DNA of 20,989 nucleotides from a virus: positions 1 through 20,989 of the IMG/VR virus record IMGVR_UViG_3300004369_000642, one strand, 5' to 3'. The translations under genes were made by a program, and so were the position numbers. Within the stretch, counting starts at the first letter, position 1; each line of letters starts with the position of its first letter. This document shows, piece after piece, positions 14,291 through 20,989 of the stretch. The notes under the pieces are model-generated. The model was given only the letters and a program-made list of their open reading frames with translations. It searched no databases and was not told where the DNA came from.

Positions 14291-14319
14291 TCCCTTGAAC
14301 CCTGGCAGAGTTATTATAG

Positions 14320-14361
14320 TGACATTTTAAGTGCTTGTCAATGGCCCCTTGTCAAATGTCA
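14320..14361 (+). repeat. TGTCA repeats and dyad at gp55 promoter
   Basis: TGACATTT (14320-14327) and AAATGTCA (14354-14361) form a perfect eight-base inverted repeat. TGTCA also occurs at 14336 and 14350, with the third direct copy at 14357, spaced 14 and 7 bases. The copies surround and include the -35 hexamer, as an operator would. Confidence 0.5.
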
Positions 14362-14377
14362 GTTACCATAGTATAAT
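14349..14377 (+). promoter_or_regulatory. Sigma70-type promoter of gp55 operon
   Basis: TTGTCA (14349-14354), a 17-base spacer, then TATAAT (14372-14377). The -10 is perfect and the -35 has five of six consensus bases. It lies in the 108-base gap before gp55 and should allow transcription by unmodified host polymerase. Confidence 0.85.
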
Positions 14378-14398: not shown

Positions 14399-14866
14399 AT
14401 GACAAAAAAGAAAGAACATTACGTCAATAACAAAGAGTTTTTGGAAGCACTTGTTGTGTATCGTAAAAAAGTTCAACAAGCTGCATCCAAAGGAGAACCA
14501 CATCCAAAAGTTCCAAATTACATTGGTGAATGTTTTTTGAAAATTGCAACTCATCTTTCATATCGTCCTAATTTTGTGAACTATATGTTCAAAGATGATA
14601 TGATTTGTGACGGAATTGAAAATTGCTTACAGTACATTGATAACTTTGATCCTGAAAAGAGTTCCAATCCATTTGCGTATTTCACGCAAATCATATACTA
14701 TGCCTTCTTGCGTCGTATTCAAAAGGAAAAGAAACAGTTGGATATCAAAACCAAACTCCTAGAGAAATCTGGTTTTGATGAAGTCTTTAGTGTTGATAGT
14801 GGAATGGGATATAGCACTTCTGATATGAATAGCATTAAAGAAACTTTGGAAATTCGTAACCGATGA
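14399..14866 (+). CDS. 55: Late-transcription sigma factor gp55
   Basis: Directs the host RNA polymerase core to late promoters of the TATAAATA type. It has 155 residues, close to T4 gp55 (185). The core of sigma region 2 is evident: LQYIDNFDPEKSSNPFAYFTQIIYYAFLRRIQKEKKQ at about 79-115, the most conserved part of this family. The matching boxes lie upstream of gp18, gp19, gp20, gp67, gp22, gp23 and the gp3-like gene in this same window. It is transcribed from a consensus sigma70 promoter, as needed for a factor made before late genes. The stop overlaps the next start as ATGA. Confidence 0.95.
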   Translation: MTKKKEHYVNNKEFLEALVVYRKKVQQAASKGEPHPKVPNYIGECFLKIATHLSYRPNFVNYMFKDDMICDGIENCLQYIDNFDPEKSSNPFAYFTQIIYYAFLRRIQKEKKQLDIKTKLLEKSGFDEVFSVDSGMGYSTSDMNSIKETLEIRNR

Positions 14867-15162
14867 TTGAATCTGGACCATATCCTGACGAGATGTTTGA
14901 TGAAGCAGAACGTCGTGAAAAAGAAAGGAAAAAAATCGAACACCCAGAAATTGCAGAAGTCGAATGGATCGACGATTGCTTTAGAGTTTATAAAACCAAA
15001 TATGGTATTTGGCACAGTGCTAAAAAAGACGGTACTGAACTTGTCACGGCACTCAGTGAAGAACTGTGTGTTAGAATGACACGTTTCTACCTCAAAGGTC
15101 TTCAAGATGGATGGGGAGAAACTCGTGTTCTTAATGATGGAATTGTTGGAGGAAAGCTTTGA
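14863..15162 (+). CDS. Unknown protein between gp55 and gp47 (99 aa)
   Basis: A small soluble protein: a very charged N-terminal helix (FDEAERREKERKKIEHPE, about 13-30), then a compact part with many aromatics (VEWIDDCFRVYKTKYGIWHSA) and a helix ending LKGLQDGWGETRV. The start forms an ATGA overlap with gp55 and the end overlaps the gp47 start, so all three are coupled. I recognise no family. Placement beside the late sigma factor could hint at a transcription partner, but I see no match to the gp33 co-activator. Confidence 0.8.
   Translation: MIESGPYPDEMFDEAERREKERKKIEHPEIAEVEWIDDCFRVYKTKYGIWHSAKKDGTELVTALSEELCVRMTRFYLKGLQDGWGETRVLNDGIVGGKL
15148..15153 (+). promoter_or_regulatory. Ribosome binding site deciding the TTG start of gp47
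   Basis: GGAGGA five bases before the TTG at 15159. This strong site and the need to keep the metal-binding DQH motif at residues 8-10 support TTG as the start. Confidence 0.8.
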
Positions 15163-16202
15163 CAGTAGCTCTTATCACCGATCAACATCTTGACGGTAGA
15201 AAAAACTCTCAAATTTTTTGGGATTATTTTATCAAATTTTATGATGATGTATTTTTTCCAACTCTAAAGAAAAATAACATCAAGACTATTATTGATCTTG
15301 GCGATACTTTTGATAATAGGAAAGGTATCGATTTTTCTGCATGGCATAGAATCAAGACAAGGTACTATGAAGTTCTTGCTGATATGGGAATCCATATTCA
15401 TATGTTGGTTGGTAATCATACAACATACTACAAGAACACAAATGCAATCAATACTCCATCACTACTTTTAGATACTTTTGATAATATCACTATCTATGAT
15501 GAGGTAACTGATGTTGAGATTGACGGCGGCAAGTTTACAATGCTTCCTTGGATCAATCAAGAAAATGAGAAAAAGGTATTAGAACATCTAAAGAATACTG
15601 ATTCCGATATTGTTTGTGGTCATCTAGAACTGAATGGATTTGCGGCTCTTCCTGGGCATGTCTTTAGTGGTGGATGGGACAAAGAAGTATTTTCAAAATT
15701 TAAAAGAGTATTTTCTGGACATTTTCACCATCAATCCTCCAAGGGTAATGTGACTTATCTTGGCAATCCGTATGAATTATTTTGGAATGATTGTGGAGCA
15801 AAAAGAGGATTTCATTTATTTGAACCATCAACTCTAAATTTAAAATTCTACAGAAACCCTTATAAGATCTTCAAAAAAATATTCTATAATGAAGACACCT
15901 GGGACAGTACTAGTTTTGATGCTTCTGAATATAAAAATTGTTATGTTAAACTAATTGTTGAAAACAAAAAAGAATCTATTTGGTTTGACCGTGTGGTAGA
16001 AAAACTCTATGATGCAGGAGTTCATGATTTAAAGATAATCGATGATACTGTAGTGAGTGATACTAATATGGAAAGTGTTGAGCACGAAGACACCCTCACC
16101 ACATTAAATAGATACATAGAAGATATAAATGAAGAACTTGACAAAAATGAACTTAAAACTATCATAAAGTCAATATACTTAGAAGCCTGTGAGGTTCAGT
16201 AA
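15159..16202 (+). CDS. 47: Recombination nuclease subunit gp47 (Mre11/SbcD-like)
   Basis: The phosphoesterase half of the gp46-gp47 complex, which resects DNA ends for recombination and degrades host DNA. It has 347 residues (T4: 339). Metal-binding motifs run in order: D8-x-H10, GD49 in IDLGDTFDNR, GNH at 85-87, a CGHLELNG histidine, and GHFHHQ near 187-191. The start is a TTG overlapping the previous stop as TTGA; the first in-frame ATG is well inside, after the first two metal motifs, and would ruin the enzyme. The stop shares one base with the next ATG. The partner gp46 lies one gene downstream. Confidence 0.95.
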   Translation: MTVALITDQHLDGRKNSQIFWDYFIKFYDDVFFPTLKKNNIKTIIDLGDTFDNRKGIDFSAWHRIKTRYYEVLADMGIHIHMLVGNHTTYYKNTNAINTPSLLLDTFDNITIYDEVTDVEIDGGKFTMLPWINQENEKKVLEHLKNTDSDIVCGHLELNGFAALPGHVFSGGWDKEVFSKFKRVFSGHFHHQSSKGNVTYLGNPYELFWNDCGAKRGFHLFEPSTLNLKFYRNPYKIFKKIFYNEDTWDSTSFDASEYKNCYVKLIVENKKESIWFDRVVEKLYDAGVHDLKIIDDTVVSDTNMESVEHEDTLTTLNRYIEDINEELDKNELKTIIKSIYLEACEVQ

Positions 16203-16477
16203 TGCATTACATTCTAACCATAGAAGGAAAAGAAAATGAAGGTGCTTATGCAGTGACTGCCCAAGACGGCAGCAAAATCCTTCAGATCTTTGAGGAGAGA
16301 GACGATGCAGAAAGGTTTGTTGTACAACTAGAAGCAATTGACCATCCTCCTATGACAGTCTATGAAATAGAATGTGAACAGGCCATTGCAGCATGTGAGA
16401 ATTTCGGGTATAATTACACCATAATAACCTCAGATGACTGTGTAATTCCAACACAAGAAGAATATGATTACATTTGA
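16202..16477 (+). CDS. DUF3110-like protein between gp47 and gp46
   Basis: A 91-residue protein. The segment IFEERDDAERFVVQLEAIDHPPMTVYEIECEQAIAACENFGY has the order of conserved residues I associate with DUF3110, a domain known from cyanobacteria: a DAER helix, an LEA followed by prolines, then an acidic stretch before a Cys-containing helix. Its function is not known. Its presence in both cyanobacteria and their phages suggests gene exchange with the host. It overlaps gp47 by one base and gp46 by 14, so it is made with the nuclease complex. A search against the DUF3110 profile would settle the family. Confidence 0.75.
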   Translation: MHYILTIEGKENEGAYAVTAQDGSKILQIFEERDDAERFVVQLEAIDHPPMTVYEIECEQAIAACENFGYNYTIITSDDCVIPTQEEYDYI

Positions 16478-18182
16478 AAACATTAGTTATAAAAATTTTC
16501 TTGCAGCTGGTAACACACCTATAAAATTAGATTTAAATGGCAGTGCAACAACATTGATTGTTGGTCAGAATGGTGCTGGTAAAAGTACTCTGATTGAAGC
16601 AATTGTGTTTGCTCTTTTCAATAAGTCTTTTAGAAAAGTAAATAAACAACAACTAATCAATTCCATTAACGAAAAGGACTGTTTGGTTGAAGTTGATTTT
16701 AGTATTGGTAAGAAAAAATATAAAGTTGTTCGTGGAATGAAACCCAACAAGTTTGAGATTTGGGTTGATGGTAAAATGCTAGATCAAGTTTCTTCTGTCA
16801 TTGATCAACAAAAGTACCTAGAACAAAATATCTTAAAACTAAATTACAAATCTTTTACACAGATTGTAATTCTGGGTAGTGCATCTTTTGTGCCATTCAT
16901 GCAACTTCCAGCTGCTGCACGACGAGAAATTATCGAAGATCTTCTGGACATTAGAATTTTCTCTACCATGAATGTCATCCTCAAAGACAGGATGAAAGTC
17001 ACAAATGAAGAGATAAAAGAAAATGAAAGAACGATTGCTTTTCTGAAAGATAAAGCACAAATGCAACAAAGTCATGTGCATCGTCTTGAGAAGTCTGCAA
17101 GAAAAACTCTAGATCAAAAAGAATTAAAGATTCGTGAGATCGAGAATAAGAATCTTAAGTTGGAAAAAATTGTAGAAGATATTCAAAGTCAATTAGATAA
17201 GTATACTCATGAACTATTAGACAATACGAGTATTGCTAATAAAATGAAATTATTAGAAAAACAAGTAACTACGAATTCTAATCTTATTAGTAGGATAGAA
17301 AAAGAAAAGTTGTTCTTTGAACAGAATGATACTTGTCCGAAGTGTACACAACCACTCTCCAATGAAGTCAAGACATATCATATTGATGAGAGTACAAAAA
17401 TTATTCAACAATCATCATTGTCTTTAGTAGAATTTAAAAAAGAAATAGACTCCCTAACTCTAGAGCTTGATAAGATTGCCAAAAACAATCAAACAGTGTC
17501 TTCTTATAATTGGGAAATTAAAAGTAATTTTGATGAGATCAAAAAGAACAATAAAATCATCAAAGAGATTCAAGAAGAGATAGATGATATTAGAAACAAT
17601 ACTCATGACATAGATTGTGAAAAGAAAAAGCTCACCGAGATTGCCACGGAGGGAATGACAATTCACAAGAGAACTAAAGATCTCAAAAAGAATAAGTCAA
17701 ACTATGACATTGTAACTTCTCTATTGAAAGACACTGGAATCAAGAGTCATATCATTAAAAAATATTTACCAGTCATGAACCAAATGATTAATAAATATTT
17801 GAAAGAACTTGATTTTTACGTCAACTTCACTTTGGATGAAGAGTTTAACGAAAGCATCAAATCTAGACACAGAGATGATTTTTCTTATTCCTCTTTCAGT
17901 GAAGGTGAAAAGATGAGAATTGATCTTGCTCTAATGTTTACATGGAGATCAATTGCTAAACTTAAGAATTCTGCGAATACTAATCTTCTAATTCTTGATG
18001 AAGTGTTTGATTCTTCGCTAGATGTTTCTGGTACAGATGAATTTTTAAGAATCATCAGAGGCGGTCAACCAGATACTAATATTTTTGTGATCTCTCATAA
18101 GAGTGAAGTTTTACACGATAAATTTGAAAGAGTGTTGAAGTTTGAGAAGAAGAAAAACTTTAGTAAGGTAGAAGTTATATAA
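16464..18182 (+). CDS. 46: Recombination ATPase subunit gp46 (Rad50/SbcC-like)
   Basis: SMC-type ATPase that drives the gp47 nuclease. It has 572 residues (T4: 560). The N-terminal Walker A GQNGAGKST is at 34-42, followed by two long coiled-coil arms (about 170-285 and 305-420) separated by the zinc hook CPKC at 291-294, which joins two complexes tip to tip. The C-terminal ATPase half has the SFSEGEKMRIDLAL signature near 478, Walker B NLLILDEVFDSSLD near 507-520 and the switch histidine in FVISHK. The start overlaps the preceding gene by 14 bases. It ends the gp55 operon. Confidence 0.96.
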   Translation: MITFENISYKNFLAAGNTPIKLDLNGSATTLIVGQNGAGKSTLIEAIVFALFNKSFRKVNKQQLINSINEKDCLVEVDFSIGKKKYKVVRGMKPNKFEIWVDGKMLDQVSSVIDQQKYLEQNILKLNYKSFTQIVILGSASFVPFMQLPAAARREIIEDLLDIRIFSTMNVILKDRMKVTNEEIKENERTIAFLKDKAQMQQSHVHRLEKSARKTLDQKELKIREIENKNLKLEKIVEDIQSQLDKYTHELLDNTSIANKMKLLEKQVTTNSNLISRIEKEKLFFEQNDTCPKCTQPLSNEVKTYHIDESTKIIQQSSLSLVEFKKEIDSLTLELDKIAKNNQTVSSYNWEIKSNFDEIKKNNKIIKEIQEEIDDIRNNTHDIDCEKKKLTEIATEGMTIHKRTKDLKKNKSNYDIVTSLLKDTGIKSHIIKKYLPVMNQMINKYLKELDFYVNFTLDEEFNESIKSRHRDDFSYSSFSEGEKMRIDLALMFTWRSIAKLKNSANTNLLILDEVFDSSLDVSGTDEFLRIIRGGQPDTNIFVISHKSEVLHDKFERVLKFEKKKNFSKVEVI

Positions 18183-18203: not shown

Positions 18204-18232
18204 TTGACTCCTTAGCGGTTTAACGATATTAT
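18204..18232 (+). promoter_or_regulatory. Sigma70-type promoter of the CobT-like gene
   Basis: TTGACT (18204-18209), a 17-base spacer, then TATTAT (18227-18232): five of six bases match in each hexamer. The spacer contains TAGCGGTT (18213-18220), also found in the cobS promoter. Transcription would start near 18240, with a leader of about 18 bases to ATG 18257. Confidence 0.82.
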
Positions 18233-18256: not shown

Positions 18257-20431
18257 ATGAACCAAGGGGTCAAGACTAATCTTGCTAAACTTCTTGCCAC
18301 TGAAAATCTGGTGGTAGAACATAAGAATGTTGAAACTGCATCGTTTGATGTACGGAATCGAGTGTTGACTCTTCCGATCTGGGAGGTGAGTGATACTGTA
18401 TATGATATGCTTGTCGGCCATGAAGTCGGACACGCCCTGTATACTCCAGTGGAATGTGATGCTCCTGATGTTCCTGGTTCTTTCATTAACGTTGTAGAAG
18501 ACGCTCGTATCGAGCGTATGATGAAGACCACATATCCTGGTTTGAATAAATCATTTTCTCGTGGTTATAAAGAACTGAATGAGAAAGATTTTTTCGAGAT
18601 TAAAGACAAAGACCTTAAGAAAGAGTATAGTCTGATTGATAGGATTAATGTTTATTTCAAACTTGGCATTCACGATGTTACCTGCATCGTTCCCTTTGAT
18701 GTTGAAGAACAAGAATATGTAGAACTTTGCCGCAAAGCAGTTACGTTTGAAGATGTAATTAATGCTGCAGCTAAAATCTATGAGTTCATGAAGTCAAAGA
18801 AAACTGAGGATAAGAAACCAGATCAGGATGTATCTTTGGTTGATCAAGGTTCTTCTGGTACTTCTTCTCAACAAGTAGAAACTGAACCTTCACAATCCAA
18901 CTCAGAAGATTCTGATTCTAAAGAGTCTTCAGACAATACCAAGGGTAACGATGATACAGATCTTGATACTCCTAGTTATGATGGTGGACAGGCTGAAGAA
19001 GAAACTGTCGATGAGTTTGAAGTAAAAACTGAAGAATCTTTTAATCGTAATCAGAAACAAATTATTTCTGATGAGAAATGGGAGTATATTACTCCTCCAG
19101 TAGTTAATTGGGAAAATCACATTACCTACAACGACGAATATGTTGATGACATGTTGTCGCTAAAGGAAAAGATTTCAACCAAACATTATTTTTCTGGTTC
19201 TACTGCTGTTTTTTACGGTAGTCTTAGAATTGATCGGTGGAAAACTGAACTGAATACTTACATCAAAGAAAGCTCAAAGTCTGTCTCTTATCTTGTAAAA
19301 GAATTTGAGATGAAGAAGAGTGCCAAAGAGTACAATCGTTCTTTTGTTTCTAAGACTGGTGTTCTCGATACCAATAAAATTTATTCTTATCAGTGGAACG
19401 AAGATCTTTTTAAGAAGAGTAATGTAGTACCTTCTGGTAAAAATCATGGACTTCTTATGTTTGTTGATTGGTCTGGATCTATGTCAACCAACATCGTTGC
19501 CACGATGAAACAACTTCTGAATCTGGTTCAGTTTTGTAAAAAATCATCTATCCCATTTGAAGTTTATTCTTTTGTGGAAAATGGTTCTGAAGTATATGAA
19601 AGAATGAAAGGTGTTGATCGTTCAATCTCTGTTGGGATTGGTTATCGATTAATCCAACTGTTTTCTTCTCAGAGAGGATCTGCAAAAATTGATAAACAAA
19701 TTGAAGCAGCATGGATTCTCGTCAATGCATTGAAAGAAGATCTGATCACATATAAAGATGAAGATGGTCGGATGAAAAAATATGATATGGGTAGCACTCC
19801 TCTCAACGAAACTATTTTTTCTGCCATCTATCTTTATAACAAGTTTCGCAAGAACTTCTCTGTCGAAAAGGTAAACACCGTATTCCTGACAGATGGGGAA
19901 TCAAATCAACTTTGTTGTAATGTTGAACGATACAATGAACTCACCGACGAGAATTATATTGTTCGTCGTCCAGCAAATAGAATGTATGGTACATACATTA
20001 GTTTCCGTGATCCCAAATCTGGTTATCAACATCACAAACTTTGCGATCCTAGTTACAGTAACGGATATGCAGTTGGAGGAATTCACGTCACTGCTCATTT
20101 GATGGAATACTATCGATGGATGACGGGATCCAATTTGATTGGATATAGAATTTGTGATTCAATTCCATCTATGCTTCAGAAAGCTGGATCATATGATTAT
20201 GATGATTTTCGTAAAGAGTGGAAGAAAAATCAATACATCATTGAAAAAAATCTTGGATACAGTGAGTTGTATGCAATTAGAGTGAACAGTGATTTTGCTG
20301 GTGAAACTCAAGAGATCAATGCAAATTCTTCTTCGACCCAAAGTAAACTACGCAATGAATTTAAAAAACATTTGAAAGGGAAGAGCTTTAATAAGATCAT
20401 CTTATCTAAGTTCGTAGACCAAATCGCTTGA
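18257..20431 (+). CDS. CobT-like VWA protein with metallopeptidase motif
   Basis: A 724-residue protein. Residues 1-180 carry GHEVGHALYTP with HExxH at 55-59 and, 18 residues later, NVVEDARIE at 78-86. Together these look like the zinc site of a metallopeptidase, with Glu81 a possible third ligand. Residues about 181-260 are an acidic Ser/Asp/Glu-rich linker. The C-terminal half is a von Willebrand A domain with the metal-binding DWSGSMS (D404, S406, S408), STPLNET and VFLTDGES. Acidic linker plus C-terminal VWA is the layout of CobT, the partner of CobS in aerobic cobalt chelatase, and a cobS-like gene follows. Cyanophage homologues are often annotated only as peptidase. Ribosome binding: GAGG at 18248-18251. 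Target unknown. Confidence 0.85.
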   Translation: MNQGVKTNLAKLLATENLVVEHKNVETASFDVRNRVLTLPIWEVSDTVYDMLVGHEVGHALYTPVECDAPDVPGSFINVVEDARIERMMKTTYPGLNKSFSRGYKELNEKDFFEIKDKDLKKEYSLIDRINVYFKLGIHDVTCIVPFDVEEQEYVELCRKAVTFEDVINAAAKIYEFMKSKKTEDKKPDQDVSLVDQGSSGTSSQQVETEPSQSNSEDSDSKESSDNTKGNDDTDLDTPSYDGGQAEEETVDEFEVKTEESFNRNQKQIISDEKWEYITPPVVNWENHITYNDEYVDDMLSLKEKISTKHYFSGSTAVFYGSLRIDRWKTELNTYIKESSKSVSYLVKEFEMKKSAKEYNRSFVSKTGVLDTNKIYSYQWNEDLFKKSNVVPSGKNHGLLMFVDWSGSMSTNIVATMKQLLNLVQFCKKSSIPFEVYSFVENGSEVYERMKGVDRSISVGIGYRLIQLFSSQRGSAKIDKQIEAAWILVNALKEDLITYKDEDGRMKKYDMGSTPLNETIFSAIYLYNKFRKNFSVEKVNTVFLTDGESNQLCCNVERYNELTDENYIVRRPANRMYGTYISFRDPKSGYQHHKLCDPSYSNGYAVGGIHVTAHLMEYYRWMTGSNLIGYRICDSIPSMLQKAGSYDYDDFRKEWKKNQYIIEKNLGYSELYAIRVNSDFAGETQEINANSSSTQSKLRNEFKKHLKGKSFNKIILSKFVDQIA

Positions 20432-20456
20432 CCGCTGCTAGCGGTTCTGTTATACT
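20428..20456 (+). promoter_or_regulatory. Sigma70-type promoter of the cobS-like gene
   Basis: TTGACC (20428-20433), a 17-base spacer, then TATACT (20451-20456); five of six bases match in each hexamer. It overlaps the stop codon of the preceding gene. The spacer has a six-pair inverted repeat ACCGCT-GCT-AGCGGT (20431-20445) and the octamer TAGCGGTT (20439-20446). Confidence 0.85.
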
Positions 20457-20479
20457 GTACAAGTAATCAAGGAAACCAA

Positions 20480-20989
20480 ATGACCGTCTCTACCGAAAAA
20501 CTGATTGACACTCTGGTCTCTGAACATGGAACTATTGTAAATCGTTCCCAACTTCAACAGACTGCTTCTGAACTGGGTATCTCTTTGTCTACTATTATCA
20601 ATCGATTGTCTTCATATAAACAAGGTCGTGGTGTGTGGAATCTGACTGTTCAAGAGAAACTTGAACAAACCTATAATGCTCCTGCAGCTAATGTTACCGT
20701 TCGGGATAATTTTAACTTGATTCCTACTAAAGATGACAATTTTATCCCGTTCGGGAACTTTTCTGATCTGAAAAAGATCATTAAATCTGGAGTTTTCTAT
20801 CCTACCTTTATCACTGGTCTGTCTGGTAACGGTAAGACTGTTTCGGTTGAACAATCTTGCGCCCAACTAAATAGGGAGTTGATCCGAGTTAACATTACCA
20901 TTGAGACTGACGAGGATGATCTTATTGGTGGGTTCCGTCTTGTTAATGGCGAAACTGTCTGGCATAATGGACCCGTCGTGGAGGCTCTT
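20480..20989 (+). CDS. cobS: CobS-like AAA ATPase, 3' end outside window
   Basis: The frame is open from ATG 20480 to the last base (170 residues seen); AAGGAAACC precedes the start. Walker A GLSGNGKT is at 113-120, followed by RVNITIETDEDDLIGGFRL and VWHNGPVVEAL, the pattern of CobS/MoxR-type AAA ATPases that work with a VWA-domain partner. CobS drives cobalt insertion in aerobic cobalamin synthesis together with CobT and CobN. The partner-like gene is directly upstream; no CobN is in view. The first 60 residues look like a small helical, possibly winged-helix, domain (ELGISLSTIINRLSSYKQGRGVW) rather than a CobS start. Walker B and the arginine finger lie beyond the window. Confidence 0.88.
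   Translation, partial: MTVSTEKLIDTLVSEHGTIVNRSQLQQTASELGISLSTIINRLSSYKQGRGVWNLTVQEKLEQTYNAPAANVTVRDNFNLIPTKDDNFIPFGNFSDLKKIIKSGVFYPTFITGLSGNGKTVSVEQSCAQLNRELIRVNITIETDEDDLIGGFRLVNGETVWHNGPVVEAL

Follow-up and report, generated by a model that had tools for sequence, protein, structure and literature searches.

A putative MoxR-type AAA+/VWA remodelling machine with a zincin-like domain in T4-like marine phages

Described pairs of MoxR-type ATPases and VWA proteins

The closest described system is a gene pair of group 2.2 jumbo phages, in which the gene for a MoxR ATPase stands with one for a vWA protein that has a metallopeptidase domain at its N-terminus; Iyer et al. (2021; PMC7824862) treat it in one sentence and propose a role in virion assembly. 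The architecture of the pair analysed here, which is alike by description, is already known from that source, and the passage concerned draws no link to cyanophage core genes, to plasmids or to CobT. In T4-like cyanophages cobS is a core gene (PMC3037559), and Liu et al. (2021; PMC8651126) read the pair as a CobST that uses the CobN of the host, calling the peptidase label mistaken; the paper on phage Mae-Yong1326-1 (PMC9503304) repeats this reading. Like the phage pair, NorQ/NorD (PMC13036017; 9qh6) combines an AAA ring with an N-domain, a flexible linker and a VWA domain, and in its structures a finger of the VWA domain sits in the ring pore, the N-domain lies at the side of the ring and the linker is stretched as the ring turns; unlike the phage protein, NorD has no HExxH reported in the portion of that paper considered here, and its target is nitric oxide reductase. 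CobS and CobT (structures 9ujv and 9uka) are homologous to the phage AAA protein and, over its full length, to the VWA subunit, whereas SMALR replaces HExxH in CobT, and the phage pair scores far below the equivalog cut-offs and has no CobN beside it in nine complete phage genomes. The N-terminal domain in turn is predicted to share three strands, a HExxH helix and a Glu on a second helix with zincins (minigluzincins, the M48 protein ZMPSTE24, ArdC, IrrE/PprI and SPRTN), although the likeness is modest (Z only 4.5–6.7; Foldseek E values no better than 0.09) and none of these is fused to a VWA domain or known to us to be driven by a MoxR ring.

On the basis of sequence, predicted structure and analogy, we favour with moderate confidence the reading that the pair forms an early-expressed MoxR-type AAA+/VWA remodeller with an N-terminal zincin (gluzincin-like) domain, and not a cobalt chelatase. 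The portions of the literature considered here do not state together the identity of such a pair with the 'cobS'/'peptidase' core pair of cyanophages, the putative loss of the site in CobT and the apparently early, replication-side setting of the genes.

The locus and its two proteins

The window, i.e. the whole stretch of DNA analysed, is a 20,989-base IMG/VR virus record whose gene order is T4-like according to its ORF list and PHROG matches, with genes for terminase, tail sheath, tail tube, portal, head maturation protease, capsid, UvsY, UvsW, a late sigma factor, gp47 and gp46. The contig opens with an ORF (56–637) that matches PHROG 2599 (ribosomal protein S6 glutaminyl transferase-like). 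The gene of interest (18257–20431, plus strand, as are all features of the pair) lies directly after gp46, and its upstream neighbours, the late sigma factor gp55 and the recombination nuclease gp47 and gp46 (14399–18182, plus strand; PHROG matches), keep this order in relatives. It encodes a protein of 724 amino acids assigned to PHROG 459 'peptidase' (E 6e-209), with HEVGH at residues 55–59 (18419–18433), NVVEDARIE at residues 78–86 (18488–18514), an acidic, Ser-rich linker at residues 190–247 (18824–18997; pLDDT <50) and a VWA domain from about residue 395 to 724 (19439–20428). The MIDAS motif of the latter is complete, comprising D404-W-S406-G-S408 (19466–19480), T514 (19796–19798) and D546 (19892–19894). 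The adjacent ORF (20480–20989) encodes a CobS/MoxR-type AAA+ ATPase that matches PF07728 above cut-off and PHROG 249 'porphyrin biosynthesis' (E 1.5e-46); it is incomplete, the contig ending at 20989, so that 170 residues are visible, among them the Walker A motif GLSGNGKT (20816–20839). Walker B, which falls past the end of the contig, was seen in relatives, and a full-length relative matches the structures of CobS, NorQ and CbbQ. All the elements noted in the preliminary description, namely a HExxH...NVVEDARIE site joined by an acidic linker to a VWA domain with complete MIDAS, and a MoxR/CobS-type ATPase gene beside it, were thus found at the positions given above.

The site is strongly conserved. 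In a set of 84 homologues, most of them approximately 35–46% identical to the window protein, H55, E56, H59, N78, E81, D82, R84 and E86 are identical in all 84, and the MIDAS residues are kept in at least 83. Across 61 N-terminal domains that include divergent ones, P40, H55, E56, H59, N78, E81, D82, R84 and D128 are invariant. Judged from this pattern of conservation, the HExxH and Glu site is under strong selection and is no chance motif; E81 is the candidate third metal ligand. A sequence search of the PDB returned no relative of the HExxH–VWA protein. An identity with DUF2201_N (PF13203) was considered and rejected, the window giving no match, as was a role in anti-phage defence, for which the window pair had no support from PADLOC.

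In the full-length AlphaFold2 model (pLDDT 80, pTM 0.75) the linker is predicted to be disordered. Modelled alone, the N-terminal domain (pLDDT 92.5) consists of three strands, a helix carrying HExxH (residues 46–62) and then a helix carrying NVVEDARIE (residues 74–92), so that the further Glu, E81, is predicted to lie on the helix that follows the HExxH helix. Its best 20 solved matches are all zinc metallopeptidases or zincin-fold proteins, and include ZMPSTE24, ArdC, abylysin, IrrE/PprI, BlaR1, jannalysin, selecase and SPRTN, with Z at most 6.7. When predicted structures of viral proteins are compared, its matches bear the names CobT or VWFA, and some of them belong to haloarchaeal tailed viruses. 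The VWA half is closest to the NorD VWA domain among solved structures (Z 17.5, 261 residues, 5.9 Å rmsd) and also matches the MIDAS domains of Midasin (MDN1/Rea1; Z 15–17), both of which partner AAA rings. The invariant residues and the zincin-like predicted fold favour the earlier suggestion that a peptidase-like site has been retained, and comparison of the model with MoxR–VWA proteins, proposed at the same time, placed the VWA half nearest to NorD and Midasin.

Distribution, loss of HExxH and relationship to CobT

Nearly all T4-like marine cyanophages carry the pair, usually labelled as vitamin B12 genes. By tblastn the HExxH–VWA protein was found in 463 phage records and the ATPase in 465 (query coverage of at least 80%), i.e. 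in a ratio of approximately 1:1, and the two genes have equal record counts for Synechococcus (365), Cyanophage (61) and Prochlorococcus (24). On viral contigs the ATPase gene comes next after the HExxH–VWA gene at 69 of the 70 loci that could be tested. By its ATPase type, this adjacency, the MIDAS motif and the VWA fold, the pair belongs to the MoxR-type AAA+/VWA pairs. A HExxH–VWA protein with a CobS-like AAA protein also occurs in unrelated phages of Stenotrophomonas (DLP6), Microcystis (Mae-Yong1326-1), Vibrio (ICP2), Gordonia (UBSmoodge), Rhizobium (RHEph10) and Roseobacter (CRP-810), in the Ochrobactrum phage OC, in SSU5-like phage-plasmids, on plasmids (IncC and those of Pseudomonas putida and Klebsiella) and in a genomic island of the SXT type; IncHI and other plasmids have homologous modules as well. 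The modules of these phages, phage-plasmids, IncC, P. putida and Klebsiella plasmids and the island share, with variations, HExxH, a helix of the ED-x-R/F-I-E type, an acidic or Gln-rich linker, a MIDAS-bearing VWA domain and an adjoining CobS-like ATPase. With the DLP6 and ICP2 proteins as queries, scans of the viral contigs yielded no relatives.

Several relatives have lost HExxH and kept the pair (in Acinetobacter L104, Pseudomonas Nican01 and Stenotrophomonas BUCTxx99), so that proteolysis cannot be needed everywhere. In an unrooted tree of the VWA domain alone, a branch with 100/100 support separates the T4-like clade, in which 12 of 12 members have HExxH, from the rest, in which 14 of 20 have it and to which CobT belongs; HExxH on both sides of this branch makes its presence the simplest ancestral state. 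About four changes of HExxH are needed on this tree (three to five among bootstraps), of which the supported branches force only one, and repeated loss is likely on these grounds. The motif has decayed to QEVAK in L104 (3412–5334), SEISK in L012 (2457–4538) and REVST in L130 (8992–10977), which are natural dead-enzyme versions.

A profile of the phage and plasmid HExxH–VWA proteins matches residues 19–615 of Rhizobium CobT (E ~5e-46), and PF06213, the Pfam model of the CobT N-terminal domain, matches the E. coli phage-plasmid protein, whose HExxH is intact, with 97 bits and the SXT-like island protein just above cut-off. CobT has SMALR aligned at the place of HExxH and keeps EQARVE at that of EDARIE. 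With the N-terminal profile alone Rhizobium CobT was not found among decoys, and hhalign of the N-domain against CobT scored approximately 23, with 23.8 for the best decoys; the homology is accepted from the full-length profile and from the PF06213 match on an intermediate only. DEKMH of CobT was considered as a decayed HExxH and dropped, Sinorhizobium having DARVH there and the profile placing SMALR on HExxH. The best reading of these alignments is that CobT is a full-length homologue without HExxH, whose active site was lost and which was reused in B12 synthesis. The preliminary description had mentioned an ExxRxE-like stretch in the N-terminal region of CobT and had suggested that CobT may descend from a protein of this kind, an idea that the full-length profile and the PF06213 match support well. 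A Caulobacter vibrioides control genome contained CobT by PF06213 and no CobN by PF02514, and CobST may also act without CobN in cells.

Promoters, gene neighbourhoods and possible function

Both genes of the pair have their own sigma70-like site in the window, TTGACT-17-TATTAT (18204–18232) for the HExxH–VWA gene and TTGACC-17-TATACT (20428–20456) for the ATPase gene. Sites scoring at least 10 of 12 occur upstream of the HExxH–VWA gene, mostly about 50 bases before it, in 19 of 78 homologous regions (24%) vs 1.1% of shuffles, and before the ATPase in 18 of 81 regions vs 3.1% of shuffles. The T4 late motif is not enriched upstream (9% vs 8.6% background, in a scan without a late-promoter positive control), and the phage promoters of the module look early, suggesting early expression. 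In PMC5082946 we found no expression data for the gene pair. Both promoters of the window carry TAGCGGTT in the spacer; the pattern TAGCGGTTN3-8TAT occurs in the window at these two places only (0.03 expected), and its TAGCGG core is absent upstream of the HExxH–VWA gene in the homologues examined. Just before gp55 (14313–14377) each strand has a strong sigma70-like site, one scoring 12/12 and the other 11/12.

In most lineages inspected the pair lies beside replication or recombination genes, in an informal survey by inspection and with the proviso that early phage genes cluster in any case. It is located between gp46 and gp45 in T4-like relatives, with uvsX and after a primase-helicase, between ligase and dnaE, before dnaE, or with DnaB/primase and dnaE in other phages, and with ssb-recT/bet-exo on plasmids. 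In Tsukamurella TIN4 it has no annotated replication neighbour, and in Roseobacter CRP-810 only repair or recombination genes lie within 10 kb.

If the pair works as NorQD does, the ATPase ring would hold on to the VWA domain of its partner, and ATP hydrolysis would twist or stretch the linker that separates this domain from the N-terminal one. With such a geometry, a target would be presented to the zincin domain, so that a bound protein would be opened and shown to the putative metal site, most likely for cleavage. The target would probably belong to DNA replication or recombination, e.g. a protein or complex on DNA, or an obstructing host factor.

Two published readings differ from this proposal, and we consider both less likely than a remodelling machine, in which proteolysis by the zincin domain is plausible. 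That the pair is a viral CobST which hijacks host CobN to raise cobalamin synthesis seems very improbable, even though CobT is a true full-length homologue and the AAA protein is related to CobS. Cyanobiaceae hosts have PF02514 in 61 of 61 cases and CobT in none of 61, a gap that a phage CobST could fill, but PF02514 includes ChlH, so that the cyanobacterial CobN count is overstated. On the CobS equivalog TIGR01650 (cut-off 558.55) full-length phage relatives score 68.4 and 94.8, against 651.9 for the Rhizobium control; the window ATPase, incomplete at the contig end, scores 17.4. The window protein matches none of TIGR01651 (the CobT equivalog, on which Rhizobium CobT scores 1110.7), PF06213 and PF11775, and HExxH is invariant in the phage clade and absent from CobT. 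The preliminary description, in which the cobalamin label was possibly misleading and the pair possibly a self-contained machine, had suggested surveying phage genomes for cobN; none of nine complete phage genomes has CobN (PF02514), and an E. coli control genome lacks PF02514 as well, though the module is present in phages and plasmids of E. coli. The equivalog misses, the absence of CobN from the nine genomes and the E. coli phages make the label doubtful and agree with a self-contained MoxR–VWA pair, whereas the absence of cobN from the window itself means little, the contig ending within the ATPase. In Pelagibacter phage HTVC008M genes for both ribonucleotide reductase subunits, large and small, are present, a set that we take to mark the class I enzyme, which is B12-independent. 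A B12 role in cyanophages, which might make use of a CobN of the host, is weakened, judged from these sequence comparisons.

The proposal of Iyer et al. (PMC7824862) for jumbo phages is a role in virion assembly, with processing of structural proteins. In its favour, tail assembly of an archaeal virus is reported there to need a MoxR–vWA pair that lacks the peptidase, and many phages use maturation proteases. Against it, a gp21-type head maturation protease is already encoded in the window. Homologous modules are found on conjugative plasmids and an SXT-like island, where there is no virion, the phage pair lies in the replication region outside the structural cluster, and early-type sites are enriched while the late motif stays at background; a virion function is accordingly unlikely. 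A somewhat better chance, still low, is given to the same machine with a zincin domain that binds metal or peptide without cleavage, acting as a pure remodeller or a metal-insertion chaperone. The relatives that lost HExxH and keep the pair speak for it, as do the characterised MoxR–VWA pairs, all of which to our knowledge work without proteolysis, and NorD and CobT, which act in metal insertion. However, in the 84 proteins, and likewise across divergent phages, the catalytic Glu E56 varies no more than the metal-binding His residues, a constancy that binding alone would not call for. It is also possible, to a similarly small degree, that the pair is a metalloprotease of phages and plasmids which is driven by its AAA+ ATPase and coupled to replication, a counterpart of the Spartan/Wss1 type that unfolds and cuts DNA-bound proteins and is of the kind from which CobT arose when the active site was lost.

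Should the pair prove to be a remodelling protease, a viral gene pair of high abundance would gain a testable enzymatic role near DNA replication, and CobT would originate from an older machine of the HExxH–VWA/AAA kind. The inferences on B12 drawn from cobS, which is frequently presented as a B12 auxiliary metabolic gene in marine viruses, would then fall.

Several plasmids have a DUF3150 gene next to the ATPase and HExxH–VWA genes or between them (L102, 11647–12924; L105, 6987–8342; L106, 7138–8265; L099, 5557–6669), and its product is possibly a third subunit or a target. A 188-kb contig in a Nonlabens xiamenensis assembly (L112) encodes the T4-like phage protein and probably represents a phage genome deposited under a bacterial name.
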